Shown here one piece after another: positions 2,739 to 53,130 of a stretch of 60,184 nt of DNA; position 1 is the first letter of the stretch; each line of letters opens with the position of its first letter. A program made the translations under genes and the position numbers. Under the pieces are notes generated by a model. That model made no database searches and had not been told where the DNA came from. It saw only the letters and a program-made list of their open reading frames with translations. This DNA comes from a virus: the IMG/VR virus record IMGVR_UViG_3300028666_000036, positions 1 through 60,184 of that record. One strand, 5' to 3'.

Positions 2739-4442
2739 ATGGCGAACGCGGCAATCCTCGCGCTCAACCTGACGCAACCGCCGCTCCTCCAAGCGACCGA
2801 GACCGTCAAGCCGGGCGACGCGCCAACCACGCTCGCCGCTGCGCTGGCGCAAGCCCTGGCGAACGCCGTCGGCCGGGAACTGCCGCCCACCCTCGCCGCG
2901 GCCCTGTCCCAAGCCGGCGCGGGATCCGCCGAGGCCCCGGGCGCCGGGACGCTCGCCGCCACCCTCGCCCAAGCCGCGGGCCAGTCGGCCGAGACCGCCG
3001 GGACTGCCGCCCTCGCCGCCGCGCTCGCACTGGCGCTACAGGATGGCTCAGGCGCCGCGAACCTGCTCACGACGCTGGCCACGCTCGCCCAGGCCCCCGG
3101 CCTCTCCGCCGAGGTCGCCTACGCGGTCACGCAATCGGTCCTGTTCCTGTTGACGCAATACCCCGGGACGTTCGGTGAGCTCGCCAACCCGCCCGCGCTC
3201 GCCGCGACCGGGGCGCTGGCCACCGAATCCCCGCCTGCCGGGGACCGCGCCGCGACCTCGACTGCGACACTGGCCCAGTCCACCGGGCAGTCCGGAGAGT
3301 TCCCGGGCGCCATGGTCCTGACGCAGGTCCTGATCGAGTACCTGACGCTCGTCTTTGCCGGCGACCGCCCGCCGACCCTCGCCGCCGCGCTCGCGCTCGC
3401 CACCGCCGACGCTTCGGGCCGGGACCTGCCCGAGGTCACGACCGGCACTCTCGCCCAGTCATTCGGCTCCCCCGGCGGGCCGGACGCGCCCGCTTCGCTC
3501 TCCGCCGCGTTCCCCGGGCCGACGGCCATGGACACCGGCCAGGACCGCCTCGTGGCGCTGGCGGCATCTGGCGCGCTCCCACTGGCCCCCTCGTCGGAAT
3601 TCCCGGCGCTGCCCGCCTTGCTCGCCACCTTGGCCCAGGTAGCGGGCAAGACCGGGGAGCGGGACGCCGCAGTGCGGTTCGGCCTCCTGCTCCTGATGTA
3701 CCCCGAGCTCGGCCAGCCCCCGGGCGACCGGCCTCCGCTGGTCTCGGTCGCGCAATCCCGCCTCGCGTCCACGGTCATCGACCAGTTCGTGCGCAACGTG
3801 TCGCTGATCCTGTCCGGAACGCAGAACGGCGGGCGCTTCCTGCAGGCCGGCTACCGGCACACGCTGGAGGTCTACGACCGGGGCGGCATCAACGGCATGT
3901 ACCACGTCGAATGCACCGGCGCGCGCCAAGCTCGGCCCTTCTGGGGGGGGACGGACGCCGTGCGCGAGCTCGACGTGGTGATTCGGGTGGCCTACTGGCG
4001 GATTGCGGACCGCCGCCGCTCCAACCGGGACGCGGCCGCCGACATGGCGCGCATCGGCGATCTCTGCGAGTCGCCGGCGGGCTACGCGTTTCAAGACGTG
4101 GGGATCCGGTCGGTCAAGCTCGTCTCCGCCAACCGCGCGACGAACACCGAGCACCTCGAAGTGTGGGAGGCCAAGTTCACGGTAGAATGGGAACAGCCCT
4201 TCGTTTGGGTCGTTACCCCTGATACAACGCAAGCCGCACCCGTCGGAGGTGGTTTCATGTTCACTGTCGCAACTCTCGCCGCCCTCGGCACCTATCCCGT
4301 GCTCGGCATGCTGTCGGGCGCGTGGCTCGCGTTCGTTGAGGAAACGCAGCGCCAGTACCGACTGCGGGCGTACACCGGCACGGCCAGCAACGGCGTGTCG
4401 CTTATATCGGCGCCCGATGGGCGCCAGTGGGTGGTGATCTGA
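2739..4442 (+). CDS. Alanine-rich repeat protein fused to a tail-terminator-like domain
   Basis: 567 residues. Residues 25-340 consist of about a dozen degenerate units of roughly 20 residues, pattern TLAAALAQA-x-G-x-S-x-E-x-P, predicted to be short amphipathic helices joined by Gly/Pro turns. Residues about 343-490 form a globular domain (RPFWGGTD, ARIGDLCESP, FTVEWEQP) clearly homologous to the whole protein at 6058 and more distantly to the tail-terminator-like protein at 17940. Residues 500-545 contain a hydrophobic stretch (FMFTVATLAALG). The gene sits among spike genes, so a virion component, perhaps an adaptor that sockets a fibre, is inferred. The repeat family is not one I recognise. 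Confidence 0.7.
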   Translation: MANAAILALNLTQPPLLQATETVKPGDAPTTLAAALAQALANAVGRELPPTLAAALSQAGAGSAEAPGAGTLAATLAQAAGQSAETAGTAALAAALALALQDGSGAANLLTTLATLAQAPGLSAEVAYAVTQSVLFLLTQYPGTFGELANPPALAATGALATESPPAGDRAATSTATLAQSTGQSGEFPGAMVLTQVLIEYLTLVFAGDRPPTLAAALALATADASGRDLPEVTTGTLAQSFGSPGGPDAPASLSAAFPGPTAMDTGQDRLVALAASGALPLAPSSEFPALPALLATLAQVAGKTGERDAAVRFGLLLLMYPELGQPPGDRPPLVSVAQSRLASTVIDQFVRNVSLILSGTQNGGRFLQAGYRHTLEVYDRGGINGMYHVECTGARQARPFWGGTDAVRELDVVIRVAYWRIADRRRSNRDAAADMARIGDLCESPAGYAFQDVGIRSVKLVSANRATNTEHLEVWEAKFTVEWEQPFVWVVTPDTTQAAPVGGGFMFTVATLAALGTYPVLGMLSGAWLAFVEETQRQYRLRAYTGTASNGVSLISAPDGRQWVVI

Positions 4443-19002: not shown

Positions 19003-20685
19003 ATGCCGACGGAACCCAGAAGGCAAAGTCAAGACCTAATCTTGACCGTAGCCGAACCCCAGTACCGAGCCGCCCAAGAGCACGCGCTCACGCGGTCGTT
19101 TCGCCCCACGGCCATCACGGCCACCACGTTCACCGACGCGAATGTCGACGCCACGGCGGTCGGCAGCTACGTGCTCCCCGAAGACGGGAACATCCGGAGC
19201 CAGCCGCGCCAGGTGATTTCGGTTGCCGGCACGGTCGCGACCATCGACGCGCCATGGCCCACCCCGGCCGCGAACACCGCGATCCGTTGTTGGGATCCGA
19301 GTGATGTCCCGGTGCGCGTGACCACGGCGAGCTCCGCGGCGGTCATCTCGACCACGCACGCGGCCGTCGCCAATGAGCCCGACAACTACTGGGCGCCGGG
19401 CAAGGGGTACTACGCGCTCGGCATCTCGGGGGCGAACGCGGGCAAGGCGTTCCAGCTTCTCTCGTTCACCTCGTCCACGGGGACCTTCACACCGACTGCG
19501 GCGCTGCCAATCACCACGGCCGTCGGTGACCTGTTCCTCATCCGCAAGGTGATTCGCCCGGCCGCCGACATCACGGCGTCCATCAAGGCGAAGTCGATCG
19601 CCCGCAAGATCATCGGCACCGGCTCGCAGGGCGGAGACATGCCGATTGTCCTGGCGAACGACGGGACCGTGTCCATGGACGTCGAAGGGCGCCCGCTCAC
19701 CGTGTCCGCCGGCTCGGGCGTCGCGGCCACACCGCCGATCGAGCTCGGGGACATCCTCGCCGACCACTTCGTGCAAACGCTGAACACGGGCGGCACGGTG
19801 AGCGCGATCGACGCCAACTCGATCACGATGACCGCCGCGGTGCCCTCGGTGAACGGGGCGATCCTGCTGAACAACGGCAAGGTCGCGCCGATCCTGTCGG
19901 CCACCGGGTCGAACGTCACGAAGTACGCGCCCGGGACCGCCGGATTCGCCAGTGTCACGACCGGCACCGTCGGGTACGCGAGCGCCTTTTACACCCGCAA
20001 GACGCTGAACTTTTTCACGCGGACATGGGATATCTTCCGCGGCGGCAAGGTGCGTCAGCTCTACCAGGGGTGCATGCCGACCCTGACCATCGACGTTCAG
20101 CGGCTCATGCCGGTGCACTTCAAGCTGGCATACACCGCCGGCGAGGCGCTGCAGTACAACGTGGATCGGCCGGTCGCGCTCGGGGCATCCAACCCGATCA
20201 GTATCCCCGACGTGGGCGTGTCGACCGACGGCAAGGGCGCCCGCATGGTGATCGACGGTACCTTCGTCAACGTGATCAGCCTGTCCGTGAACGCGGGCCT
20301 CAAGCCAGTGCCGCGCAACTCGCTGTCGGGGCTCGGGCAGATGGACGGCCTTCTCCAGGACCTCTCGGCGCCCACGGGTCAGATGAAAATCTACTCCGAC
20401 AACGACGATCTCGCGGGCTTCACCGATCTCATGGACCGGATGCAGAACCGCGTTCCGATGGCCGTGCTCTACCAAAAAGGCACCGCGCCCAAGGAGACGT
20501 TCTGGCTGTTCATGCCGACGCTCGTCTTCACCGGCGACGAGTTCGGCTACGACAACGGCCAGGGCGTCTCCACCATCGACTTCACGTGCGTCTCGCCCGA
20601 GGCGGCCGTCGACCAGTCCAACGCGCAGCTCTACCCGACTGCCACCTTCCCGGGGCTGTCCGAGCTCTCGTTTGGGTGGTGCTGA
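19003..20685 (+). CDS. Major tail (tube) protein
   Basis: 560 residues. It precedes the tail chaperones, the fixed position of the tube gene. Residues 150-260 contain KVIRPAADITASIKAKSIARKIIGTG, and residues 340-520 hold a tube-like region (RKTLNFFTRTWDIFRGG, GCMPTLTIDVQRLMPVHFKLAYT, SIPDVGVSTDGKG) ending with FWLFMPTLVFTGDEFGY. It is longer than simple tube proteins, consistent with inserted surface domains (about residues 30-150 Ser/Thr-rich). The start gives a clean N-terminus and follows GAGAGGTAGCG. Confidence 0.75.
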   Translation: MPTEPRRQSQDLILTVAEPQYRAAQEHALTRSFRPTAITATTFTDANVDATAVGSYVLPEDGNIRSQPRQVISVAGTVATIDAPWPTPAANTAIRCWDPSDVPVRVTTASSAAVISTTHAAVANEPDNYWAPGKGYYALGISGANAGKAFQLLSFTSSTGTFTPTAALPITTAVGDLFLIRKVIRPAADITASIKAKSIARKIIGTGSQGGDMPIVLANDGTVSMDVEGRPLTVSAGSGVAATPPIELGDILADHFVQTLNTGGTVSAIDANSITMTAAVPSVNGAILLNNGKVAPILSATGSNVTKYAPGTAGFASVTTGTVGYASAFYTRKTLNFFTRTWDIFRGGKVRQLYQGCMPTLTIDVQRLMPVHFKLAYTAGEALQYNVDRPVALGASNPISIPDVGVSTDGKGARMVIDGTFVNVISLSVNAGLKPVPRNSLSGLGQMDGLLQDLSAPTGQMKIYSDNDDLAGFTDLMDRMQNRVPMAVLYQKGTAPKETFWLFMPTLVFTGDEFGYDNGQGVSTIDFTCVSPEAAVDQSNAQLYPTATFPGLSELSFGWC

Positions 20686-20686
20686 C

Positions 20687-20914
20687 GTGAGCCTCGAATC
20701 CATGGCCGAGGCCGCCATTGCGGCGGCCGTTGCGGCGAATCCCGCTCATGCGAGCGGCGACCGGCACGGGCAGTCCGTGCATTCGGTGAGCGTCGGGTAC
20801 GACGGCGTGTCGTGCTTCGTGCCGTGCTCGTGTGGCGTGACGCTGGCGGTGCGGATCCTCAAGGACGACGGCTCGACCGCCCCGCGCGTCTCGGTGACGG
20901 ACGATGGCTCTTAG
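20687..20914 (+). CDS. Small protein with CxC motif
   Basis: 75 residues from GTG 20687, one base after the tube stop; overlaps the next gene by 11 bases. Ala-rich helix then a beta segment CFVPCSCGVTLAVRIL. Role unknown; the location between tube and chaperone genes suggests tail assembly. Confidence 0.6.
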   Translation: MSLESMAEAAIAAAVAANPAHASGDRHGQSVHSVSVGYDGVSCFVPCSCGVTLAVRILKDDGSTAPRVSVTDDGS

Positions 20915-40291: not shown

Positions 40292-40651
40292 ATGTCACCA
40301 AAGCCCCGCGCCAAGCCCCCGCTCCCACGGCTCTCCCCATCCGGACGCGAGACCGAGGAGCGCCACCGCAAGCACGCACTCGCAATCGGCCGTTCGACCT
40401 CGCGCGCGCTCCGGGAGGGGCATCCGTTCGTAGTCGCACTGTACGAGGCGGGGTGGACCGTGGCCGGTTGGTGCAGGCACGCCACGGCCAAGTACCGCGA
40501 CAGGCTCACGCGCTCGACGGCAAGCGGGTGGGTGCACGACGGCGACGGAAAACGGAAAGTGCCGTGGATTTGGGCGAAGCGCATCGAGCGGGAGTTCCCC
40601 GCGCTCACCGTCGAGAGTTGGCGGAATGGCGTCACGGGCGGGCCGGGCTAG
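40292..40651 (+). CDS. Basic HTH-like protein
   Basis: 119 residues from ATG 40292. Basic and aromatic (KHALAIGRSTSRALREGHPF, EAGWTVAGWCRHATAKYRDRL, STASGWVHDG, RIEREFPALTVESWRNG). The central SGWVHDGDGKRKVPWIWAKRIEREF has the look of a helix-turn-helix for DNA recognition. Next to the methyltransferase; may regulate it. Confidence 0.6.
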   Translation: MSPKPRAKPPLPRLSPSGRETEERHRKHALAIGRSTSRALREGHPFVVALYEAGWTVAGWCRHATAKYRDRLTRSTASGWVHDGDGKRKVPWIWAKRIEREFPALTVESWRNGVTGGPG

Positions 40652-40666
40652 CGCAAAAGGAGAACC

Positions 40667-41653
40667 GTGGATGAGCTGGCACTTTTTGCAGGCGGGGGAG
40701 GCGGCATCCTGGGAGGGCGACTCCTTGGCTGGCGCACCCGCTGCGCTGTTGAGCTTGATCCCTACTGCCGACGGGTGTTGCTGTCCCGCCAGCGCGACGG
40801 AGCGCTCGCCCCGTTCCCGATATGGGACGATGTGCGAACCTTCGACGGCCGTCCCTGGCGAGGGCACATTGACGTCGTCAGCGGCGGATTCCCCTGCACC
40901 GACATCAGCGTCGCCGGCAAGGGAGCCGGAATCGAAGGCGCTGAGTCCGGGCTCTGGCGAGAGATGGCGCGAATCATTCGCGAGGTGGAACCCCGCTACG
41001 TCTTCGTGGAAAACAGCCCAACTCTTGTTACTCGCGGACTCGGGCGAGTCCTCGGTGACCTGGCCTCGATGGGGTTTGATGCGCGATGGGGTGTGCTCGG
41101 AGCAGACGACGTCGGCGCCCCGCATGTCCGAAAGCGGATTTGGATCGTGGCCCACGCTGCGGAGCACGGACGGGGAGCGTGGCGAACGCGGGGACCTGAT
41201 TCAAGCGGTACGTGGGAACAGCAACAGCCACTTCAGACTGCCGACGCTCACGGCAAGCAGCTACGGGAATTCGCAGGGCGGTGGCATGGGGCGAACAGGG
41301 CCGGTGCGGATGTCGTTGCAGAGCATGGCGGCGAAGGGGATGCCGCCGACGCTCACGGTCGACGGGAACTACAACCGCAAGGGGGCGTCGAAGACGAGCG
41401 GGGACGGGCTCGCGACGGCGCTGAAGCGGTGGCCGACGCTGACGGCGAACGAGGCGAAGAACAACGGCGGACCGGCGCGTCACGAGAGGAATTCTCCGCC
41501 ACTGGACGCGGTGATTGGTGGACCTCTGAACCCGACGTGGTGCGAATGGCTCATGGGATTCCCGCTCGGGTGGACCGACTGCGCGCCCTTGGAAATGCAC
41601 AAGTTCCGGCAGTGGTTGCGCTTGCATGGCGACTATTAGCGCGGCGCGTCTGA
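40667..41653 (+). CDS. DNA (cytosine-5) methyltransferase
   Basis: 328 residues from GTG 40667 (AAAAGGAG in front). Motif I LALFAGGGGGILGG, motif IV GGFPCTDIS with catalytic Cys at 77, motif VI VFVENSP (Glu 115), motif VIII RKRIWIVA, and near the C-terminus motif X region LRALGNAQVPAVVALAWRLL. All core motifs are present, so it should methylate cytosine and protect phage DNA. The segment between motif VIII and IX is low-complexity and overlaps a long open frame, see 40671. Confidence 0.9.
   Translation: MDELALFAGGGGGILGGRLLGWRTRCAVELDPYCRRVLLSRQRDGALAPFPIWDDVRTFDGRPWRGHIDVVSGGFPCTDISVAGKGAGIEGAESGLWREMARIIREVEPRYVFVENSPTLVTRGLGRVLGDLASMGFDARWGVLGADDVGAPHVRKRIWIVAHAAEHGRGAWRTRGPDSSGTWEQQQPLQTADAHGKQLREFAGRWHGANRAGADVVAEHGGEGDAADAHGRRELQPQGGVEDERGRARDGAEAVADADGERGEEQRRTGASREEFSATGRGDWWTSEPDVVRMAHGIPARVDRLRALGNAQVPAVVALAWRLLARRV
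40671..41639 (+). CDS. Overlapping +1-frame protein inside the methyltransferase gene
   Basis: 322 residues from ATG 40671, four bases into the methyltransferase gene, ending 14 bases before its end. Segments recall phage proteins that I know from many prophages (MSWHFLQAGEAAS, SSWKTAQ, WPRWGLMRDGV, SGNYNRKGASKTSGDGLATAL-type DGNYNRKGASKTSGDGL, NPTWCEWLMGFPLGWTD). These fit a known family, commonly found beside cytosine methyltransferases, whose true function is unknown. Both frames look constrained, so this is either a real overlapping gene or a shadow conserved because of the methyltransferase. Confidence 0.5.
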   Translation: MSWHFLQAGEAASWEGDSLAGAPAALLSLIPTADGCCCPASATERSPRSRYGTMCEPSTAVPGEGTLTSSAADSPAPTSASPAREPESKALSPGSGERWRESFARWNPATSSWKTAQLLLLADSGESSVTWPRWGLMRDGVCSEQTTSAPRMSESGFGSWPTLRSTDGERGERGDLIQAVRGNSNSHFRLPTLTASSYGNSQGGGMGRTGPVRMSLQSMAAKGMPPTLTVDGNYNRKGASKTSGDGLATALKRWPTLTANEAKNNGGPARHERNSPPLDAVIGGPLNPTWCEWLMGFPLGWTDCAPLEMHKFRQWLRLHGDY

Positions 41654-43763: not shown

Positions 43764-44134
43764 TCACGGCGGGAATCATGCTGGCGTCCACTGGCGCGCT
43801 GGCCGGCGCAACGTCGACCACGTTCAACGCGGCGATGTTCATTCACGACACGAGCATCCCGATCACGCAGTCCGGTGGATTTCGGCTCCCGTCTGCGCTG
43901 GCCGCTCGGGGATGGACCTGTCAGGTCACAGACGAGGCGTTGTCAGACGACGGGCGCAAGGTCTTTCGGAACATCGCCTGCCGGTACGGAGATTCAACGG
44001 TGGTCGCGAGCGCGGCGTGCCTGCGCACGGCCCCCGACTTCGACAGCGGCGCGTTCTCGCTCCGAGCCGGCGACGTCGACGCTGCACTTGTGATCACGTG
44101 CAAGACCTCGGTGGCGGGGGGCGCCTCGCTGTGA
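43739..44134 (+). CDS. Secreted Cys-containing protein
   Basis: 131 residues from ATG 43739 with a strong AGGAGGGAGG. MRSKLAKLITAGIMLASTGALAGA is a signal peptide with signal peptidase I site near 22-24. Mature region has four Cys (TCQVTDEAL, NIACRYGD, SAACLRT, VITCKTS), likely disulphides in the periplasm. No known family; presumably envelope modification. Confidence 0.65.
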   Translation: MRSKLAKLITAGIMLASTGALAGATSTTFNAAMFIHDTSIPITQSGGFRLPSALAARGWTCQVTDEALSDDGRKVFRNIACRYGDSTVVASAACLRTAPDFDSGAFSLRAGDVDAALVITCKTSVAGGASL

Positions 44135-45285
44135 AGTCGATTCGTTGCAGCTCGCTTCCGCTCTTCATGAGATGCCCGAGCGCCCTCGAAGGCGATCTCC
44201 GCATCGACAGTTTCAACGACGCATCCGCGCTCGGGACCGCGGTTCACGAAGCGATGCAGGCGGTCGTCGGCGGCCTCATGGTCGACGTCGGAAAGCTGGC
44301 GGCCGAGCACGGCGTCGAAGCTGACGACCTGGGCGTGCTCGTATGGCTCGGCAGGAAGATCTGGGTCGAACTGGCGCCGAGCTTCCCCGGCGCGTGCTCC
44401 GAGGCGGAGGTCAACACGATCGACATAGACGGCAACAACCTGACAGATGATGCCGGGTTCGAACTGACCGGGCACATCGACGTCATGGCTTCGGTGCATC
44501 ACGACTCCGATAATGAGGAGGCTAGGATCCTGGACTGGAAGTCGGGGCGCATTGACGGCGACTACCGGGCGCAACTCATGGGCTACGCGTTGTGCATCTT
44601 CGCGATGGAGCTTGAGTTCCAGACGGTCACCGGGACGGTCGGCTGGCTGCGCGAGGGCGAGACGGAGACCTACGTCTTCCGTCGCTCGGAGCTGGCCAGC
44701 TACATCGCCGAGATCCGCGACCAGCTTGCGCGCGTCGGCCAGTACACCGTCGGCTCGCACTGCCAGTATTGCCCGCGGCGCCACTCCTGCCCGGCGCTCG
44801 CGGCACAGGCCCGGGCCGACGTGGCGCTGCTCGGCGGCTTGCAAATCATCGAAACCAGCGACGGGCCGAAGGGCATCTCGGCCATGCAGCCCGCCGAGAT
44901 CGTGCGCCTGTTCAAGATGTCCAAGATCATCGCGGCACAGGCGGAAAGCTTCCAGGACGCCGTTCGCCGGCTCGCGAAGGACGGGCCCATCGATGGCGGT
45001 GACGGGACCGAGATTCGCCTCGTGTCCGAGAAGGGGCCGCGCAAGGTGGACGCCGCGATCGCGTGGCCGATCCTGCTTGCGCGACTGACCGACGATGAGG
45101 TACTGTCTTCAATCAAGGTAAGCATCTCGGCTGTGGAAAAGGCGGTCATGGCGAAGGCCGAACGTGGCAAGGGCGCGGCGGCAAAGCGCGAACTCACAGA
45201 GGCGCTGGACGCCGTGCAGGCGACGAGTCAGACCACGATCCACAAGCTGAAGGTTTTGCGCACACCCAAAGGAGAAATCGAATGA
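44131..45285 (+). CDS. PD-(D/E)XK nuclease with Fe-S type Cys cluster (Cas4/AddB/DUF2800-like)
   Basis: 384 residues from GTG 44131. GTAVHEAMQA near 36, FELTGHIDVMAS near 110 and ARILDWKSGRIDG near 131-143 form the nuclease core: His, then D in GHID, and the D-x-K of DWK. A C-terminal HCQYCPRRHSCPAL near 209 with an N-terminal Cys (RCSS, MRCP) resembles the four-Cys cluster of Cas4. It would resect DNA ends for recombination with the neighbour at 45282. Confidence 0.8.
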   Translation: MKSIRCSSLPLFMRCPSALEGDLRIDSFNDASALGTAVHEAMQAVVGGLMVDVGKLAAEHGVEADDLGVLVWLGRKIWVELAPSFPGACSEAEVNTIDIDGNNLTDDAGFELTGHIDVMASVHHDSDNEEARILDWKSGRIDGDYRAQLMGYALCIFAMELEFQTVTGTVGWLREGETETYVFRRSELASYIAEIRDQLARVGQYTVGSHCQYCPRRHSCPALAAQARADVALLGGLQIIETSDGPKGISAMQPAEIVRLFKMSKIIAAQAESFQDAVRRLAKDGPIDGGDGTEIRLVSEKGPRKVDAAIAWPILLARLTDDEVLSSIKVSISAVEKAVMAKAERGKGAAAKRELTEALDAVQATSQTTIHKLKVLRTPKGEIE

Positions 45286-46328
45286 GCGACGAAATTGCAC
45301 CGTGGGACAAACCCGAAGATACCGAGATCATCCGCGTTCAGGAGTCGAGCGGCGGCATCGATGCCGTCAACCGCGGAGAGGTGGAGTCGCAGCTTTCCGC
45401 CGCGCACCGCTACCCGCGTAGCATCACGAAGTTCATGCGCTCGGCGCTGTCCATGGCGACCATCTCGCGAGAGGTTGCGGAGTCGTGCATCTACGCCCTT
45501 CCGCGCGGCGGCAAGACGATCTCGGGCCCGTCCATCCGACTGGCCGAGATTTGCGCCAGCGCGTTCGGCAACCTCCACGTCGCGGCTCGAATCATCGAGA
45601 CCGGGGAGAAGGAGGTCGTGGCGCAGGGTGGAGCGTGGGACCTGGAAGCCAACAGCCGGGCCACCGTCGAGAGCCGGCGCCGCATCACCGACAAGAACGG
45701 CAAGCGGTACAACGACGACATGATCCTGATGACCGCCAACGCCGCCGCATCCATTGCGCTTCGAAATGCGATCTTCCGAGTCGTGCCGCGCGCCTACGTC
45801 GATACCATCTTCGCGAAGGTCAAAGAGGTGGCCGTCGGCAAGGCTTCCACGTTGGTCGACCGGCGCGCCGAGGTTCTCGCGCGACTGGCGAAGCTTGGCG
45901 CCACGCAGGATCGCGTGATGGCCGCACTGGAACTGAAGGACGTAGGCGACATCGGCCTCGACCAGCTCGAAGTCCTCATCGGCTACGGTACGGCCATCAA
46001 GTCGGGTGACAAGACGGTTGACGAGGTGTTCCCTGGTCCGGCCGCCGCCGTTCCCGGCATCGCCCCCGCCGAGCAAGGGCGCCGCGTGGCACTCGGGCGC
46101 AAGCCGGCGGAGGCCAAGCCCGAGCCGACGCCACCGCCCGCCGGCAACCCGAACCTCGCCGCGCAGGTCGAGTTGGCACAGGCGCAGTCCGCGCTCGCCC
46201 GCCGCATCTCGGAACTCGGCATGTCCAACGGCGACGTGGCCGCCGACTACGAGGTGGCCGCGATTTCGGACCTGACGATCGAACAGGCGCAGCAGGCGCT
46301 GAGCAAGCTCGCGGCGGTGAAGTCGTGA
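45282..46328 (+). CDS. Probable single-strand annealing / recombination mediator protein
   Basis: 348 residues from ATG 45282 (ATGA overlap). Central region (SITKFMRSALSMATISREVAESCIYALPRGGKTISGPSIRLAEICASAFGN, about 45-95) then IIETGEKEVVAQGGAWDLEANSRATVESRRRI follow a phage family found next to Cas4/RecE-like exonucleases and usually thought to be RecT/Redbeta-like. C-terminal third is Pro/Ala-rich. The nuclease just upstream is what one expects in such pairs. Call is from context and remembered family pattern, not from a unique motif. Confidence 0.6.
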   Translation: MSDEIAPWDKPEDTEIIRVQESSGGIDAVNRGEVESQLSAAHRYPRSITKFMRSALSMATISREVAESCIYALPRGGKTISGPSIRLAEICASAFGNLHVAARIIETGEKEVVAQGGAWDLEANSRATVESRRRITDKNGKRYNDDMILMTANAAASIALRNAIFRVVPRAYVDTIFAKVKEVAVGKASTLVDRRAEVLARLAKLGATQDRVMAALELKDVGDIGLDQLEVLIGYGTAIKSGDKTVDEVFPGPAAAVPGIAPAEQGRRVALGRKPAEAKPEPTPPPAGNPNLAAQVELAQAQSALARRISELGMSNGDVAADYEVAAISDLTIEQAQQALSKLAAVKS

Positions 46329-46411
46329 ACGCGGACGGCATCGCAGAAGTGGTGATGGCCGTGGCGCTCGGGATCGTCGTGATCATCGCCGCATGGAGGA
46401 ACGTCAAATGA
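46325..46411 (+). CDS. 28-residue membrane peptide
   Basis: GTG 46325 overlaps the previous stop and the stop overlaps the next ATG (ATGA). Hydrophobic segment VVMAVALGIVVIIAAW flanked by charged ends. Coupling on both sides argues for translation; role unknown. Confidence 0.5.
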   Translation: MNADGIAEVVMAVALGIVVIIAAWRNVK

Positions 46412-46803
46412 ACCGCTGGATCGAATGCGTGACCGAGTTTCACCATCGATTTGGCGTGCCGTCGAACACCGTGCCGGCCACGCCGGCGTCCGAGCGGATC
46501 CTGCTTCGCCAGTCCCTGATCGACGAGGAGGCAACCGAAACATGCCTGGCGCTCGCGGATCTCACGGATGAGACGCACGCCATGGCGGAAGTCGCCGACG
46601 GCCTGGTCGACACCATCTACGTGTGCATCGGCGCCGCGCTGGAGCTCGGCATCGACCTCGATCCGCTGTTCGAGGAGGTGCACCGCACGAACATGGCGAA
46701 GGTCGGTGGGCAGTCGAGGAGCGATGGGAAGATCATGAAGCCGCCTGGATGGCAGGCACCGCGCATCGCCGAACTGCTCAAGGCGCAGGGGTGGAAGCCG
46801 TGA
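46408..46803 (+). CDS. MazG-like nucleotide pyrophosphohydrolase
   Basis: 131 residues from ATG 46408. LIDEEATETCLALAD (about 37) provides the EExxE-type metal site, and ADGLVDTIYVCIGAALELGIDLDPLFEEVHRTNMAKVGG (about 63-98) the second helix pair; the tail DGKIMKPPGWQAPRIAELL is typical. Such phage enzymes hydrolyse dNTPs or (p)ppGpp, cleaning pools for replication. Family call is reasonable; substrate unknown. Confidence 0.75.
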   Translation: MNRWIECVTEFHHRFGVPSNTVPATPASERILLRQSLIDEEATETCLALADLTDETHAMAEVADGLVDTIYVCIGAALELGIDLDPLFEEVHRTNMAKVGGQSRSDGKIMKPPGWQAPRIAELLKAQGWKP

Positions 46804-47081
46804 ACCGCTCACTAGGCGTCGTCATCGGCATCACCCTAGCCTCGCTCACGTGGGCAGTCGTCGCGGCGCACGGCATCCGCCGGCCCATCCCGCTGCCTGC
46901 CGGCGACCCCACGAAACTAGAGCGCATCATGGCCGCGCCGCTGCCCGATGCACCCGTCGAATACCCTGCGTACTTCGTGCATTCCAGCGGTGCGGAACCC
47001 GGGATCGAGCCACCGGCGCCTCGGGTTCATCGCCACGCGCGGGTCACCGTCGGCCGCAACGGCGCGCCGATCATCCCTTGA
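46800..47081 (+). CDS. Small membrane-anchored protein
   Basis: 93 residues from GTG 46800 (GTGA overlap). N-terminal VVIGITLASLTWAVVAAH is a signal anchor or signal peptide; the rest is Pro- and Ala-rich (IRRPIPLPAGDP, PPAPRVHRHARVTVGRN). No lipobox Cys. Envelope location likely; function unknown. Confidence 0.55.
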   Translation: MNRSLGVVIGITLASLTWAVVAAHGIRRPIPLPAGDPTKLERIMAAPLPDAPVEYPAYFVHSSGAEPGIEPPAPRVHRHARVTVGRNGAPIIP

Positions 47082-47107
47082 CACTTTTCAACACTCGCAT
47101 ACTGTAT
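47078..47107 (+). promoter_or_regulatory. Promoter TTGACA-N16-TACTGT with ATACTGTAT palindrome
   Basis: TTGACA 47078-47083, 16 bases, TACTGT 47100-47105. ATACTGTAT (47099-47107) is the full palindrome also seen at 42296. Unlike the leaderless ones, a ribosome site GTGAGGTG is present before ATG 47124 and no AATTC box lies upstream. Confidence 0.65.
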
Positions 47108-47123
47108 CCCGTGAGGTGTTTCC

Positions 47124-47402
47124 ATGATCAAGTTTACCGTCGGTGATGTGACGCTCGAAGCGGTTGACGCCGAGACTTTTTTGCGCATCGCGCGCGCGAC
47201 CGAGCCGTTTCGCAAGTTCATGGTACCGGCCGCCGCTGCACAGTGGGCAAATCTGCCGGTTCCGGGGCGCGTGCCGTGGCACGATCGCTATCGGTGCACC
47301 GAGGGCGGCGTCCATCACTCTGCGCTCGCAAGCTACATCCATGTGAGCGACGAGGGGCGCGGCCTGTGCCTGGACTGCGCCGCTGAGGTATTCAAGCCGT
47401 GA
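47124..47402 (+). CDS. Small protein with C-terminal CxxC
   Basis: 92 residues from ATG 47124. VGDVTLEAVDAETFLRIARATEPFRKFMV then a later GLCLDCAAEVFK and YRCTEGGVHHS with two His. A zinc site CxC/HxxH is possible. Head of the replication operon; function unknown. Confidence 0.6.
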   Translation: MIKFTVGDVTLEAVDAETFLRIARATEPFRKFMVPAAAAQWANLPVPGRVPWHDRYRCTEGGVHHSALASYIHVSDEGRGLCLDCAAEVFKP

Positions 47403-47725
47403 CGCCGGCAGACCACGCGGGCGAGGCATTCCTGCGCCGGCACGCGAAGGGCGCTACGCCGGGCGAGGCGTTCGAGGAGGCGCTGCGCGCGTGGAGGGGC
47501 AAGTCCAACACGCCTCTGGAAAACGTCGCCAAAGACATGGGTGCGCGCGCCGACCTGATACGAAGTCGGTCGCGGTTGCCGGAAATCGTGCGCACGCGCG
47601 ACGAGGCGGCTTGGCGCATGCGCGAGTCGGGCATGACCTACTCGGCAATCGGTCGGGCGCTCGGGGGAATGAACCATTCGAGCGTGATCACTGCGGTTCG
47701 GCGGCACATTGGGAGGCGGACGTGA
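47399..47725 (+). CDS. DnaA domain IV-like DNA-binding protein
   Basis: 108 residues from GTG 47399 (GTGA overlap). Residues about 60-107 (RSRSRLPEIVRTRDEAAWRMRESGMTYSAIGRALGGMNHSSVITAVRRHI) follow the DnaA C-terminal domain: an arginine-rich segment, helix, then IG-R-L-GG-x-NHSSV-x-x-AV, close to the DnaA signature GGRDHSTV. It lacks the AAA+ part, so it may bind an origin-like DNA and recruit the helicase or regulate initiation. Not a usual phage initiator. Confidence 0.65.
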   Translation: MTPADHAGEAFLRRHAKGATPGEAFEEALRAWRGKSNTPLENVAKDMGARADLIRSRSRLPEIVRTRDEAAWRMRESGMTYSAIGRALGGMNHSSVITAVRRHIGRRT

Positions 47726-49119
47726 GCGAGTACGAGGAATTCATCGAGCGCAAGAGGCTTCTGGTCGCGCCGTCCGGGTTCGAGGCTGCCGAGGTTTCTG
47801 GCATGGCCTACCCGTTTCAAGCCGACATCATTCGGTGGGCGTGTCGCATGGGGCGCGCGGCAGTGTTCGCTGACTGCGGACTCGGGAAGAGCCTGATTCA
47901 ACTCGAATGCGCGCGGCTTATGGTCGAGCACTCCGGAAAGCCGGCGCTGATTCTCGCCCCGCTGGCGGTGGCGCAGCAGACCGTGCGCGAGGGTGAGAAG
48001 TTCGGGATCCACTGCCGGTACCTCAGACAGGACGACGGAGCGCCCGGAATCGTGGTCGCCAACTACGAGATGCTAGAGCACTTCGACGCGCGGCGGTTCG
48101 GGACCGTCATCCTCGACGAGTCGTCGATCCTCAAAGCTCACACGGGCAAGATGCGAAACCTCATCATCGACACGTTCTCGTCGACGCCATACCGACTCGC
48201 CTTCACGGCCACGCCGAGCCCGAACGACTTCACCGAGCTCGGTAACCATTGCGAGTTTCTCGGCGTCATGCGCCGCACGGAGATGCTGTCGATGTTCTTC
48301 GCGCACGACGGGGGCAGCACGCAAGACTGGCGCATCAAGGGCCACGCGCAAAAGGACTTCTGGAAGTGGGTATGCGGCTGGGCGGTCATGATTCGGTCGC
48401 CTGCGGATCTCGGGTATGAGACGAGCGACTTCGTCCTGCCGCCCATGCGCATCGAAAAGAGCGTCATCGCGGCCGACCATTCACAGGCCAAGAAGTCCGG
48501 CTTCCTGTTTGAGATGGAGGCGCAGACGCTGCAGGAACGGCGGGCGGCGAAGCGGGGCACCATCTCGGCGCGGTCGAAGGCATGCGCGGACTTGATTGCG
48601 TCTGAGCCGGGAGAGCAGTGGCTCACGTGGTGCAATCTCAACGACGAGGGCGACGCTCTCGCCGCGTTGATCCCGGGCGCTGTCCAGGTGTCAGGGTCGG
48701 ACACGCGTGAGCACAAGGAGTCGTCGATCGCCGGGTTCACCGAAGGTCGCATCCGCGTCCTCGTCAGCAAGCCGTCGATGTTTGGGCACGGCCTCAACCT
48801 GCAAAACTGCGCGCGCATGGCTTTCGTCGGCCTCTCGGATTCGTTCGAGGAGTTCTACCAGGCCGTGCGCAGGTGTTGGCGATTCGGGCAGAAGCGCGAG
48901 GTCGCGGTGCACGTCATAACGTCCGAGCTTGAGGGCGCCGTCGTCGCTAACATCCAGCGCAAGGAGGCGGACATGGTGAAAATGATCGCCGGCATGCTCG
49001 AAGAGATGCGCGCAGAGATGCGCGCGAACGTCCGTGGGACGCAGCGGAATGTCGTCGAGTACGAGCCGACGAAGAAACTCAAAATCCCAGCTTGGCTAAC
49101 TTCCGAGGTGCGCACATGA
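47722..49119 (+). CDS. SNF2/DEAD-type helicase (SF2)
   Basis: 465 residues from GTG 47722 (GTGA overlap). Q-like motif FQADIIRWACRMGRAAVFADCGLGKSL (Walker A GLGKS near 52), motif II as VILDESSIL (about 130), motif III LAFTATPSPND (about 157), C-terminal lobe with VLVSKPSMFGHGLNLQNC (about 351) and AVRRCWRFGQKREV (motif VI, about 378). This is a known phage class near DNA methylases; it likely translocates on DNA to unwind or remodel in replication or recombination. Confidence 0.85.
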   Translation: MSEYEEFIERKRLLVAPSGFEAAEVSGMAYPFQADIIRWACRMGRAAVFADCGLGKSLIQLECARLMVEHSGKPALILAPLAVAQQTVREGEKFGIHCRYLRQDDGAPGIVVANYEMLEHFDARRFGTVILDESSILKAHTGKMRNLIIDTFSSTPYRLAFTATPSPNDFTELGNHCEFLGVMRRTEMLSMFFAHDGGSTQDWRIKGHAQKDFWKWVCGWAVMIRSPADLGYETSDFVLPPMRIEKSVIAADHSQAKKSGFLFEMEAQTLQERRAAKRGTISARSKACADLIASEPGEQWLTWCNLNDEGDALAALIPGAVQVSGSDTREHKESSIAGFTEGRIRVLVSKPSMFGHGLNLQNCARMAFVGLSDSFEEFYQAVRRCWRFGQKREVAVHVITSELEGAVVANIQRKEADMVKMIAGMLEEMRAEMRANVRGTQRNVVEYEPTKKLKIPAWLTSEVRT

Positions 49120-50006
49120 ATGTCATCGATCAGAAAGTTACCGACCGGTTCGCAATCTACAACGGAGATTCATGCGAGGTGCTCAAGGGAATCCCGGACA
49201 ACTCCGTCGACGGCTCTGTATTTAGCCCCCTGTTTAGTTCTCTTTACACATACTCGGCCAGCGATCGCGACCTCGGCAACTGCACCGGCGAGGATGAGTT
49301 TTTCGAGCACATGAAGTTCTTGATCGCGGACTTGCTTCGGGTGACGAAGCCAGGTCGGAACCTCGGATTCCACTGCATGACGATGCCGACTTCTAAGGCC
49401 AAGGATGGATACATCGGCCTCCGAGACTTCCGCGGCACGCTCATTCGCGCATTCGAAGCTGCGGGTTTCATCTTCCATTCCGAAGTGTGCATCTGGAAGG
49501 ATCCCGTCACGCAGATGCAGCGAACGAAAGCCCTGGGCCTGCTTCATAAGCAGGTACGCAAAGACTCCGCGATGTCGCGGCAGGGGCTAGCGGACTATAT
49601 CGTGACAATGCGAAAGCCAGGGGAGAACCCGGACCCCATCACACACGACGACTCAGACTTGCCTGTGTCATTGTGGCAGAAGTACGCGTCCCCTGTCTGG
49701 ATGGACATCAACCCAAGCAATACGCTCCAGAAAGAGTCAGCGCGCGAAGACGAGGACGAGCGTCATATCGCGCCGTTGCAACTCGACGTGATCGAGCGGT
49801 GGCTTCACCTGTGGTCGCGTCCCAACGACGTGATCCTGTCCCCCTTCGCCGGCATCGGCAGCGAGGGATACCAGGCGCTGAAGATGGGCCGACGGTTCAT
49901 CGGGTGCGAGCTAAAGCCGTCGTACTACAAGCAGGCCGTGCTTAACCTTGACGCGTGCGAGAAGGCGCAGTCCGTCGGCGACCTGTTCTCGCGCATCGCC
50001 CCGTGA
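49116..50006 (+). CDS. DNA N4/N6 methyltransferase (beta class)
   Basis: 296 residues from ATG 49116 (ATGA overlap). Motif IV near 37-40 reads SPLF, where the family has SPPF/SPPY; a C-terminal motif I, SPFAGIGSEGYQALKMGRRFIGCELKPSYYKQA (about 243-275), and an order IV-I match the beta class. Leucine replaces the second proline, which may reduce activity or indicate an altered enzyme. With the cytosine methyltransferase it would modify phage DNA. Confidence 0.8.
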   Translation: MNVIDQKVTDRFAIYNGDSCEVLKGIPDNSVDGSVFSPLFSSLYTYSASDRDLGNCTGEDEFFEHMKFLIADLLRVTKPGRNLGFHCMTMPTSKAKDGYIGLRDFRGTLIRAFEAAGFIFHSEVCIWKDPVTQMQRTKALGLLHKQVRKDSAMSRQGLADYIVTMRKPGENPDPITHDDSDLPVSLWQKYASPVWMDINPSNTLQKESAREDEDERHIAPLQLDVIERWLHLWSRPNDVILSPFAGIGSEGYQALKMGRRFIGCELKPSYYKQAVLNLDACEKAQSVGDLFSRIAP

Positions 50007-50045
50007 CGCTGCGACCCGTTGACTTTCTGCCGCAAGGGTGATTTC

Positions 50046-50174
50046 ATGGAAATGCGACCCCACATGCTGAAATTTCGTGCCCGGAAATCCCATCGTCTCC
50101 ACCAACGTCGTGGGGTCGCACTCTCGCCGGTGTTGCAGGCGGTGGGATTCCTGGGCATCGAGGTGCGCACGTGA
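50046..50174 (+). CDS. 42-residue basic protein
   Basis: ATG 50046 to TGA 50174 (MEMRPHMLKFRARK...). Basic N-terminal half and a hydrophobic end (SPVLQAVGFLGIEV). AAGGGTG is near. The next start codon GTG 50171 overlaps the stop. Codon bias is mediocre, so this is tentative. Confidence 0.45.
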   Translation: MEMRPHMLKFRARKSHRLHQRRGVALSPVLQAVGFLGIEVRT

Positions 50175-50251
50175 CGAAACGCAGCGAGTCGGTCATGGAG
50201 TCCGAATGGAGGAAGACCCAAGATGGCCCGCATCCGCACGATCAAGCCTGA
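50171..50251 (+). CDS. 26-residue ORF
   Basis: GTG 50171 overlaps the previous stop and runs 29 bases into the initiator gene (VTKRSESVMESEWRKTQ). GGAGG near the end may serve as the ribosome site of the initiator. Probably a leader-type or spurious ORF. Confidence 0.3.
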   Translation: MTKRSESVMESEWRKTQDGPHPHDQA

Positions 50252-51125
50252 ACTACTCGAAGACGAGAAGGCGGCGTCCCTGTCGCACGTGGAATGGCGT
50301 ACGTGGGTGTCGTGCATCCTTCTTGCCGACGACTACGGGAACTTCCGGGCGCACCCTCAACGCGTCGCCAGCGCGATCATGTGGGCTCACTCCGACGTCG
50401 ACATGAAGGCCGTGCTTCGGCGCCTGAATTCAATCGGCCTGATCGAGCTCTACTCGGTCGACGGCCAGGCTTACGCGCACCTGACCGGGTGGGAGAAACA
50501 CCAGCGCGTCGACAAGCCCGGGAAGCCAACCTGCCCCGGTCGCGAGACTCCCGCGAAAGTTCCCGGGGATTCCCTGGGGTCTCGCGAGGAATTACACGAT
50601 GATGTCGGTAACTGCTTGGAATTACATGATTCGCGAGACACTCGCGAGACTCCCGCGAAAGTTCCCGGGACTCCCGCGCCTGACCGGGACCGGGACCGGG
50701 ACCGGGAAGAGGACCGGGAAGAGGATAGCGCTCCGAGGTCCGCTCCCGCGGACTCGAAGCCGGAACCGCTCCGCCTTGGACTTTCGGGAGACACGCCGGA
50801 TCCGCCGGTCCTGACCTACCCGACCAACGGAGATCCGAAGGTGTGGCATCTGACCCAACGGCAGATCGACGCATGGCAGGTTGACTTCCCAGGGGTGGAC
50901 GTTCGGATTGAGGCCGGCGCGGCTCGGTCATGGTGCGAAGCGAACCGCGCGAACCGTAAGACCGCAGGCGGCATGGAAAAGTTCCTCGTGGGATGGATGA
51001 CGCGTCAGCAAAACAGCGGACGTGGACCCAAGGGACCGGGCATAAAACCAAGGCCAAGCACCGCGCACCCGAACCCGAACTACAACCCCGACGCGATGCC
51101 TCCGCTCTGGAGGCCGCCCACATGA
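50223..51125 (+). CDS. Replication initiator / DnaD-like organiser with internal iterons
   Basis: 300 residues. Residues 1-100: MARIRTIKPELLEDEKAAS, WVSCILLADDYGNFRAHPQRVASAIMWAHSDVD, LRRLNSIGLIELYSVDGQAYAHLTGWEKHQRVD, the winged-helix start of phage replisome organisers. Residues 105-180 are a low-complexity linker with the DNA repeats 50540-50670 and an RDRDRDREED stretch. Residues 195-290 form a C-terminal domain (IDAWQVDFPGVDV, AARSWCEANRANRKTAGGMEKFLVGWMTRQ) like DnaT/DnaD helicase loaders. It would bind the origin and load the helicase, as lambda O and P do together. Confidence 0.75.
   Translation: MARIRTIKPELLEDEKAASLSHVEWRTWVSCILLADDYGNFRAHPQRVASAIMWAHSDVDMKAVLRRLNSIGLIELYSVDGQAYAHLTGWEKHQRVDKPGKPTCPGRETPAKVPGDSLGSREELHDDVGNCLELHDSRDTRETPAKVPGTPAPDRDRDRDREEDREEDSAPRSAPADSKPEPLRLGLSGDTPDPPVLTYPTNGDPKVWHLTQRQIDAWQVDFPGVDVRIEAGAARSWCEANRANRKTAGGMEKFLVGWMTRQQNSGRGPKGPGIKPRPSTAHPNPNYNPDAMPPLWRPPT
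50540..50670 (+). repeat. Iteron-like repeats: candidate replication origin inside the initiator gene
   Basis: TCGCGAGACTCCCGCGAAAG (and onward CCCGGG) occurs at 50540-50567 and 50642-50669, 102 bases apart. TCGCGAG also occurs at 50582 and 50631. Between the long copies, GGAATTACACGAT (50588) and GGAATTACATGAT (50618) form a second, more AT-rich repeat pair. Lambdoid phages place ori iterons and an AT-rich stretch inside the initiator gene, which matches this layout. A run of GGACCG repeats follows at about 50680-50730. Confidence 0.55.
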
Positions 51126-51283
51126 CGACGCCCGACCAAATCCGTTCCTGGATCCGCCAACTCGACGCAATCCGCACGGCACTCGTCGCCGGCCCCTTCT
51201 CGGCCTCGGCATCTCGCGCCCTGGAGCGCGCCGACGACATGATTGCCCGACTACAGGCGCTACTCGACGAGGCCCGCCAGTGA
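51122..51283 (+). CDS. 53-residue helical protein
   Basis: ATG 51122 overlaps the initiator stop (ATGA). One or two amphipathic helices (IRSWIRQLDAIRTALVAG, SRALERADDMIARLQALLDEARQ) suggest coiled-coil dimerisation. Lies between initiator and primase-helicase genes, so an accessory in replication is plausible. Confidence 0.55.
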   Translation: MTTPDQIRSWIRQLDAIRTALVAGPFSASASRALERADDMIARLQALLDEARQ

Positions 51284-53130
51284 CGATCCACGAGTTCGTG
51301 GCGCGTCTGAAATCCGCCAAGGCGTGCGGGGATCGACGCTGGATGGCCCCATGCCCCGCTCACGACGACCGGATGCCTTCGCTCTCGGTCACAGCTGGCA
51401 CCGGCGGCAAAATACTCGTGTGCTGCCACGCAGGATGCGATACCGCGGCAATCTGCGATTCGCTCGGGCTCAAGGTCGGGGACCTGTTCGAGGAACCACT
51501 CGTCAACGGCAAAGCCGAGGAAACCCTGGACCCGAGGGAGTGGCCGGTCACCGCGGTCTACGAGTACTTCGACGCCGTGTGGGTCTTGAAGTACCGCGTG
51601 TCCCGCTTGACCTCGCCCGACAGCGGCCGCAAGTCGTTCCGGCAAGAGTCCATGCAGGGCGGCAAATGGGTCCCCTCGATGACCGGCGTCGAGCGCATAC
51701 TCTACCACGCGCCGCAACTCGCGAAGTCCACGGGCGTCGTGTTCTTGGTCGAGGGCGAGCGCGATGTGGAATCGGTCGAGGCACTCGGGCTCACTGCGAC
51801 GACCAAGACGGGCGGGTCGAGCTCGAAGTGGGAGGCCGGCATGGTGGCCGCGCTGAAGGGCCGCAGCGTCGTCGTGTTGCCCGACAACGACGTCCCGGGC
51901 GAGAAGGCCGCGACACTGGCACAAGCCGCGCTGGGCGAAGCCTGCGAGTCCGTGAAGGTACTCAAACTACCGGGGCTGCCGCCAAGCGGAGACGTCACGG
52001 ACTGGATCGGCGCGGGCGGCACCGCCGAGAAGCTGCTGGCCATGGTCGCGCGACTCGAGGCCGGCCCGCGCTTCCTCCGGTCGCCAGAGCGATTGAGCGG
52101 CGAGCGCGCGCGGCGGCTCGACGACGGCAAGTCGCTCTTGCACTTCGGGGTGCAGTTCCTTGACGACGCGTTCGGAGGCATCACGCGACAGGATCTCGTG
52201 CTCGTTGGGGCGAAGTCGGGCGCCGGCAAGACGGCCCTCGTCAGCGGCATCTCGCTGGCAAACTGCACACTTGGCAAGCGCGTGCACCAGTTCCAGCTGG
52301 AGGCCGAGGACATCGAGATTGAGCGCCGCATGAAGTTCACGATCCTGGCCTCGAAGTTCTTCGCCAGCGGCACGCGCTCGAACGCCGACATCCGCTACAT
52401 CAACTGGCGCAACGGGAAACTCGAACAAGAGCTCGGTCCCTTCGACAGCGAGACGGACGCCGAGCTTCGAAAGATCCTCGCGAACCTGAGCACGTACTAC
52501 CGGATCAACTCGTTCACCAGCGACGACTTCTCGCGCCTATTCGCGAGTGTTCAGGATGAGACGGACCTAGTTGTGCTCGACCATTTCCACTACGTGGACG
52601 TCGACGACAAAGACGAGTATCGCGGGCAGAAAAAGATCCTCCAACAGATCCGCGACTCAGCATTGCGCGCGGATCGCCCGGTCATCGTCGTCGGGCACAT
52701 CCGCAAGTCGAGCGGTCGCTATGATTCGGTGGTCCCAAACGAGGACGCATTCCACGGCTCCAGCGACCTCGTGAAGATTTCGACCAAGGCGATCATGATT
52801 GCGCCCGACTACGAAACGCCGTCTCCCGGTCCGGGCCAGTGGTCGACGTACATGCGAATCGTGAAGTGCCGCGCCGACAGCTCACTCACGCGCTATGTGG
52901 CGAAGCTGACCTTCGACACGCGCACGAACTCCTACCTCCCGCACTACACGCTCGGCCGACTCGACATGACGGGGCAGACATGGGAGGCGCTGACGAGCAG
53001 TGAGTGGCCGCGCTGGTACAAGTCGAGTCCCGGCGCCGACGGCCGCCCGACGCCACCGCCCGTCGATGACCCACCGCCAACCCGAACCCGCATTCCCGAT
53101 CGATGGGACCCACCCGAGGAGGACAGATGA
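51280..53130 (+). CDS. Bifunctional primase-helicase
   Basis: 616 residues from GTG 51280 (GTGA overlap). Primase zinc site CPAHDDRMPSLSV ... CCHAGC near 25-51; TOPRIM with VEGERDVE near 156-163 and VLPDNDVPGEKA near 200. Helicase core: GAKSGAGKTALVSG near 309 (Walker A), then VVLDHFHYVD near 428 (Walker B) and a DnaB/RepA-type end (VGHIRKSSGR). Similar to T7 gp4 type organisation. It unwinds and primes the replication fork. A Pro/Arg tail follows. Confidence 0.9.
   Translation: MTIHEFVARLKSAKACGDRRWMAPCPAHDDRMPSLSVTAGTGGKILVCCHAGCDTAAICDSLGLKVGDLFEEPLVNGKAEETLDPREWPVTAVYEYFDAVWVLKYRVSRLTSPDSGRKSFRQESMQGGKWVPSMTGVERILYHAPQLAKSTGVVFLVEGERDVESVEALGLTATTKTGGSSSKWEAGMVAALKGRSVVVLPDNDVPGEKAATLAQAALGEACESVKVLKLPGLPPSGDVTDWIGAGGTAEKLLAMVARLEAGPRFLRSPERLSGERARRLDDGKSLLHFGVQFLDDAFGGITRQDLVLVGAKSGAGKTALVSGISLANCTLGKRVHQFQLEAEDIEIERRMKFTILASKFFASGTRSNADIRYINWRNGKLEQELGPFDSETDAELRKILANLSTYYRINSFTSDDFSRLFASVQDETDLVVLDHFHYVDVDDKDEYRGQKKILQQIRDSALRADRPVIVVGHIRKSSGRYDSVVPNEDAFHGSSDLVKISTKAIMIAPDYETPSPGPGQWSTYMRIVKCRADSSLTRYVAKLTFDTRTNSYLPHYTLGRLDMTGQTWEALTSSEWPRWYKSSPGADGRPTPPPVDDPPPTRTRIPDRWDPPEEDR

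Follow-up and report, generated by a model that had tools for sequence, protein, structure and literature searches.

Nested reading frames in a phage gene that probably encode the two polypeptides of a single C5 DNA methyltransferase

One piece of phage DNA very probably encodes a C5 DNA methyltransferase as two polypeptides, in the manner of M.EcoHK31I, from two reading frames of the same strand. The gene lies in the window, by which is meant the whole stretch of viral DNA that was analyzed (60,184 nucleotides, positions 1 to 60,184 of IMG/VR record IMGVR_UViG_3300028666_000036); there a methyltransferase frame, here called alpha, contains almost all of a second long frame, here called beta. 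A sequence-only reading of this DNA had offered a choice between two selected proteins that share one DNA segment and a second protein family that is a shadow of the methyltransferase. The first of these has been borne out: beta is a second, selected polypeptide and not a shadow. What that reading did not see is that the two proteins look, from their alignments, like complementary parts of one enzyme.

In the proposed enzyme, alpha (frame 0) would supply the large catalytic domain. It would carry motifs I-VIII and then, after a linker with a passive role, motif X, which packs back onto the catalytic domain in C5 methyltransferases. Beta, read in frame +1 from a start 4 nt past that of alpha, would supply the small domain, with the recognition cassettes and motif IX. 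Both frames would be translated, and alpha and beta would join as a heterodimer to give one active methyltransferase, its DNA specificity set by beta; such an enzyme probably marks the phage DNA against host restriction.

The locus and its paired starts

Alpha, the large C5-cytosine methyltransferase polypeptide, is encoded at 40667..41653 on the plus strand (GTG start, 328 aa), and beta at 40671..41639 on the same strand (ATG start, 322 aa). The sequence-only reading had reported the 322 open codons from the ATG at 40671, which are confirmed, and had quoted the peptides NYNRKGASKTSGDGL and EWLMGFPLGWTD along with WPTL units, all of which are present in beta. The overlap amounts to 969 of 987 bp, or 98% of the alpha gene, such that beta is nested almost wholly within it; the beta frame is also open further 5', up to an ATG at 40626.

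A Shine-Dalgarno-like AAGGAG at 40657..40662 (plus strand) precedes the alpha start by a gap of 4 nt and the beta start by 8 nt, and in relatives the commonest gap is likewise 4 nt to alpha and hence 8 nt to beta. A single ribosome-binding site may serve both starts. Among 210 start contexts, the alpha start position is ATG, GTG or TTG in 176, and 4 nt further on there is an ATG in 182 contexts and a GTG in 10. Synonymous shuffling of this GC-rich gene gives an expectation of 2.5 stops in its +1 frame, and none is present (P ~0.03). Taken alone, the open frame of the window gene is only mildly unusual, and its meaning must therefore come from relatives.

Complementary parts of one enzyme

The catalytic domain of alpha, with motifs I-VIII, is encoded at 40676..41167 (plus strand). 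PF00145 matches residues 4-167 only (E 8.9e-29), the match stopping after motif VIII, and TIGR00675 matches residues 6-165; the catalytic PC and ENV motifs of C5 methyltransferases are met as GGFPC and VENS. When compared profile to profile with single-chain methyltransferases, represented by 27 actinophage C5 enzymes, the alpha profile aligns with columns 2-185, which hold motifs I-VIII (E 1.8e-42). The AlphaFold2 model of alpha is confident for the catalytic domain, approximately residues 1-165, and of low confidence at residues 171-192 and 206-309. The stretch that follows the catalytic domain, at 41168..41536 (plus strand), is variable, and both this model and the substitution rates given below are consistent with a neutral linker lying over the recognition region of beta. 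Further 3', at 41567..41629 (plus strand), is the motif X region, RVDRLRALGNAQVPAVVALAW, which includes RALGNAQVP; GNAQVP stands here for the family consensus GNGQVP, whose columns are conserved in alignments A2 and A4. In a single-chain C5 methyltransferase, one chain holds motifs I-VIII, the recognition region and motif IX; of these alpha lacks the last two, and both are found in beta. The sequence-only reading had motifs I-X in the methyltransferase frame, which is correct for I-VIII and X but not for IX, located in the second frame.

Beta can be divided into three parts, all on the plus strand. The N-terminal half (40671..41147) lies over alpha motifs I-VIII and has the conserved residues W113, T115, P132, W134, G135 and G140. 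The recognition region (41148..41525) has PTL/PTP cassettes at approximately 41148, 41238, 41343 and 41430. Motif IX, LNPTWCEWLMGFPLGWTD, at 41526..41579, has the pattern EWLMGFPxGWTD and aligns with EWMMGWPAGWV of the single-chain enzymes. From residue 160 onward, the profile of the whole beta alignment falls on columns 229-408 of the single-chain methyltransferases (E 4.5e-14), although the final part of this match, into motif X, stems from a few AquI-type members of the beta alignment. Those columns come after motif VIII and contain LPTP units, and EWMMGWPAGWV occupies the motif IX position. The placement of the two profiles indicates that alpha and the C-terminal half of beta together tile a single-chain methyltransferase. 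The beta profile did not match one canonical methyltransferase, the E. coli hit H109, used as a single sequence. All 100 aligned beta proteins match PHROG 1008, yet despite the DNA methyltransferase label of that family, beta by itself has no match in Pfam, the catalytic domain included, and none that convinces in the PDB. Modeled alone by AlphaFold2, beta folds poorly (mean pLDDT 53), which lends no support to the proposed enzyme; a need of beta for alpha could be the cause.

An arrangement with ribosomes starting at alpha and shifting to the beta frame after motif VIII, to make a single chain of motifs I-VIII, recognition region and motif IX, would suit the constant +1 relation of the frames and the fact that beta supplies exactly what comes after motif VIII. 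Such programmed frameshifting is nevertheless improbable, as the chimeric chain would be without motif X, which remains in alpha, while beta has a conserved start of its own 4 nt after that of alpha and an N-terminal half that is open and constrained throughout, upstream of any shift site. It is very unlikely that beta is an independent protein, of anti-restriction or regulatory function for example, that overprints the methyltransferase and acts outside the enzyme. The N-terminal half of beta, for which Pfam gave no match and a PDB search nothing convincing, would fit such a protein, but the alignment places the C-terminal half on the part of single-chain methyltransferases that holds the recognition region and motif IX, the very part that is missing from alpha. 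For the two-polypeptide enzyme, the N-terminal half of beta would most simply be an overprinted addition, since the motifs that it overlies occur in all C5 methyltransferases; it may have a role in assembly.

Both frames are kept in relatives

Relatives were first gathered by scanning viral contigs with beta, which gave 80 loci, and by adding 16 phage records. In 95 of these 96 both alpha and beta were matched in the fixed +1 relation. Because this set was mostly chosen by means of beta, a second viral scan was made with alpha only; beta is present in all 80 of the loci so found and uninterrupted in 79. L116 has a broken beta and an open alpha. The 58 non-redundant genes of the alpha-selected set contain one stop in the +1 (beta) frame against 278 (sd 11) expected from shuffling synonymous codons within each gene, and the deficit holds in genomes of approximately 50% GC as well. 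The +2 frame of the same 58 genes has 910 stops against 804 after shuffling.

Scanning genome contigs with the beta alignment added 79 further loci, both frames being recognizable in all, on contigs of Pseudomonas, Acinetobacter, Burkholderia, Verrucomicrobia, Planctomycetes and others. In L179, L223, L229 and L249 of this set an in-frame stop breaks alpha and beta remains open (in L249 the stop comes after the catalytic PC). A strict heterodimer would not predict loci of this kind, unless these are decaying copies. Over the whole collection, both proteins have been preserved by evolution in well over a hundred relatives.

Two other features of the relatives can be recorded. An HNH-endonuclease-like insert interrupts both frames within the motif IX / VDRL stretch in L022 (~3070-3800) and L091 (~1800-2350); Rfam found no intron at these two loci. 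Public annotation of L007, L008, L010 and L011 is inconsistent, with either alpha or beta annotated by itself in some records and the two together in others, under labels that range from hypothetical protein to DNA methyltransferase.

Selection on each frame

Substitutions in 39 close pairs were classified, as in OLGenie, according to what they change in each frame; a sequence could enter two pairs, which makes the pairs partly non-independent. The rates are drawn from other members of the family, none of which is very close to the window. In the catalytic codons the constraint on alpha is strong (NS/SS 0.06, NN/SN 0.15). Beta is moderately constrained over the same region, alpha codons 1-162 (SN/SS 0.28, CI 0.23-0.32; NN/NS 0.64); with some 305 sites synonymous in both frames, NN/NS and NN/SN draw on more sites than the SN/SS and NS/SS ratios do. 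Alpha evolves neutrally in the variable region (NN/SN 1.11, CI 0.93-1.31), where beta is constrained (NN/NS 0.26, CI 0.17-0.37), and over the 50 codons at the C-terminus both frames are constrained. Where beta has motif IX, at alpha codons 281-300, third-position divergence (0.173) is lower than first-position divergence (0.341).

The window gene at 656-2731 had been intended as a control but gave only one viral relative, and single-chain actinophage methyltransferases were used in its place. Their +1 frame over codons 3-110 is neutral, with SN/SS of 1.14 (0.94-1.48) and nearly as many stops (105) as expected (113), indicating that the method creates no constraint where none is expected. At codons 111-165 of the single-chain actinophage loci (L258, L264, L272 and others) constraint on the +1 frame persists (SN/SS 0.53, with 9 stops where 42.5 would be expected). 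These loci have a partial beta-like open reading frame in the +1 frame, with motifs IX and X in frame with I-VIII.

Purifying selection on both frames, one mark of a genuine same-strand overlapping gene pair, is present in the alpha/beta family. The sequence-only reading had named two things that would count against a second protein, namely that most relatives have stops in its frame or that beta residues change freely; both were looked for, and neither is seen. The idea of a shadow frame, open only through GC-rich and repetitive methyltransferase coding, with the second family as an annotation artefact, could draw on the less than overwhelming P value of the window gene and on the position of the EWLMGFP peptide over conserved alpha residues, but it is rejected with near certainty by the stop counts, the constraint on beta where alpha is neutral, the neutral control, the conserved beta start and the fact that beta is homologous to a domain which single-chain methyltransferases carry in frame.

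The variable region of beta is made up of cassettes of ~37 residues that begin W/L/F-PTP, up to four of them and mostly one to three. Classes of cassette recur at differing positions, at times in betas that are otherwise distant. For the GNYNRKG cassette, which is present in the window, 16 distinct copies have a mean identity of 83% when read as beta, against 43% when read as alpha; the copies were gathered by a beta-frame pattern that in itself favors beta. Together with the neutrality of alpha and constraint on beta in this region, the cassette identities point to beta as the probable carrier of target recognition.

Comparison with known enzymes

Split C5 enzymes of the M.EcoHK31I kind are already known, and in M.EcoHK31I itself the small subunit is read from a different frame inside the gene of the large one. 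By its published description, M.EcoHK31I (YGGCCR) resembles the proposed window enzyme in having motifs I-VIII and X in the large chain and motif IX on a small polypeptide of its own. The differences are that beta in the window has 322 aa, begins 4 nt after alpha and overlaps it nearly completely, and that selection places recognition in beta; the larger subunit of M.EcoHK31I carries motifs I-VIII and X and the recognition domain, the latter assignment being itself a prediction, and the smaller subunit carries motif IX only (PMC3404938). M.AquI (CYCGRG) also has catalytic motifs I-VIII in one polypeptide and motif IX in another, but in its case IX and X are together on the smaller subunit (PMC3404938), whereas the motif X of the window lies in alpha.

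Single-chain phage C5 methyltransferases of the mycobacteriophage type (alignment A5) have consecutive segments homologous to alpha motifs I-VIII and to the LPTP/EWMMG units of beta, in one chain and one frame where the window uses two. An AquI-type layout is found in the relatives L208, L024 and ArV1 (L007), with motifs IX and X in the beta frame in L208 and L024, and single-chain layouts occur within the wider family (L258, L264). The occurrence of both layouts suggests that frames have been exchanged as the family evolved. A plasmid search for an EcoHK31I-like system led to the E. coli hit H109, which was rejected as a split enzyme; it is a canonical methyltransferase adjoining an NgoMIV-family endonuclease.

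The overlap of alpha and beta in phages is not described in the open-licence papers found. The near-total overlap, the wide spread in phages and prophages and the cassettes shared in the beta frame look new. The window enzyme is most likely of a known kind, more extreme and far more widespread than those papers describe.

Genome surroundings

Genes downstream, at 43912-53130 of the window, match phage exonuclease, helicase and primase/helicase families, which places the methyltransferase near a replication module. Elsewhere in the window, at 19003-20685 (plus strand) and 19036-20718 (minus strand), are two antisense open reading frames of 560 aa each that overlap almost completely; this pair is probably a GC-rich shadow.

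Implications

At ~970 bp the nested same-strand pair is very long, it occurs widely among phages and prophages, and each of its products can be assigned to a part of one enzyme. The overlap explains inconsistent annotation, in which one frame, the other or both are given depending on the record. In enzymes split in this way the recognition domain would be relocated to the small subunit. It is about an even chance that these loci form a phage-wide class of nested alpha/beta enzymes that arose by frame exchange from single-chain enzymes, with specificity residing wholly in the +1-frame subunit, in no more than four swappable cassettes of ~37 residues that alpha reads as a neutral linker. Were that so, the neutral reading in alpha would leave specificity exchangeable by recombination with catalysis unharmed. 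The locus would be a natural split methyltransferase, the sort used in targeted-methylation work, and its specificity part may be modular. Constraint here is divided between the frames, and the evolution of overprinting is thereby testable within one gene.
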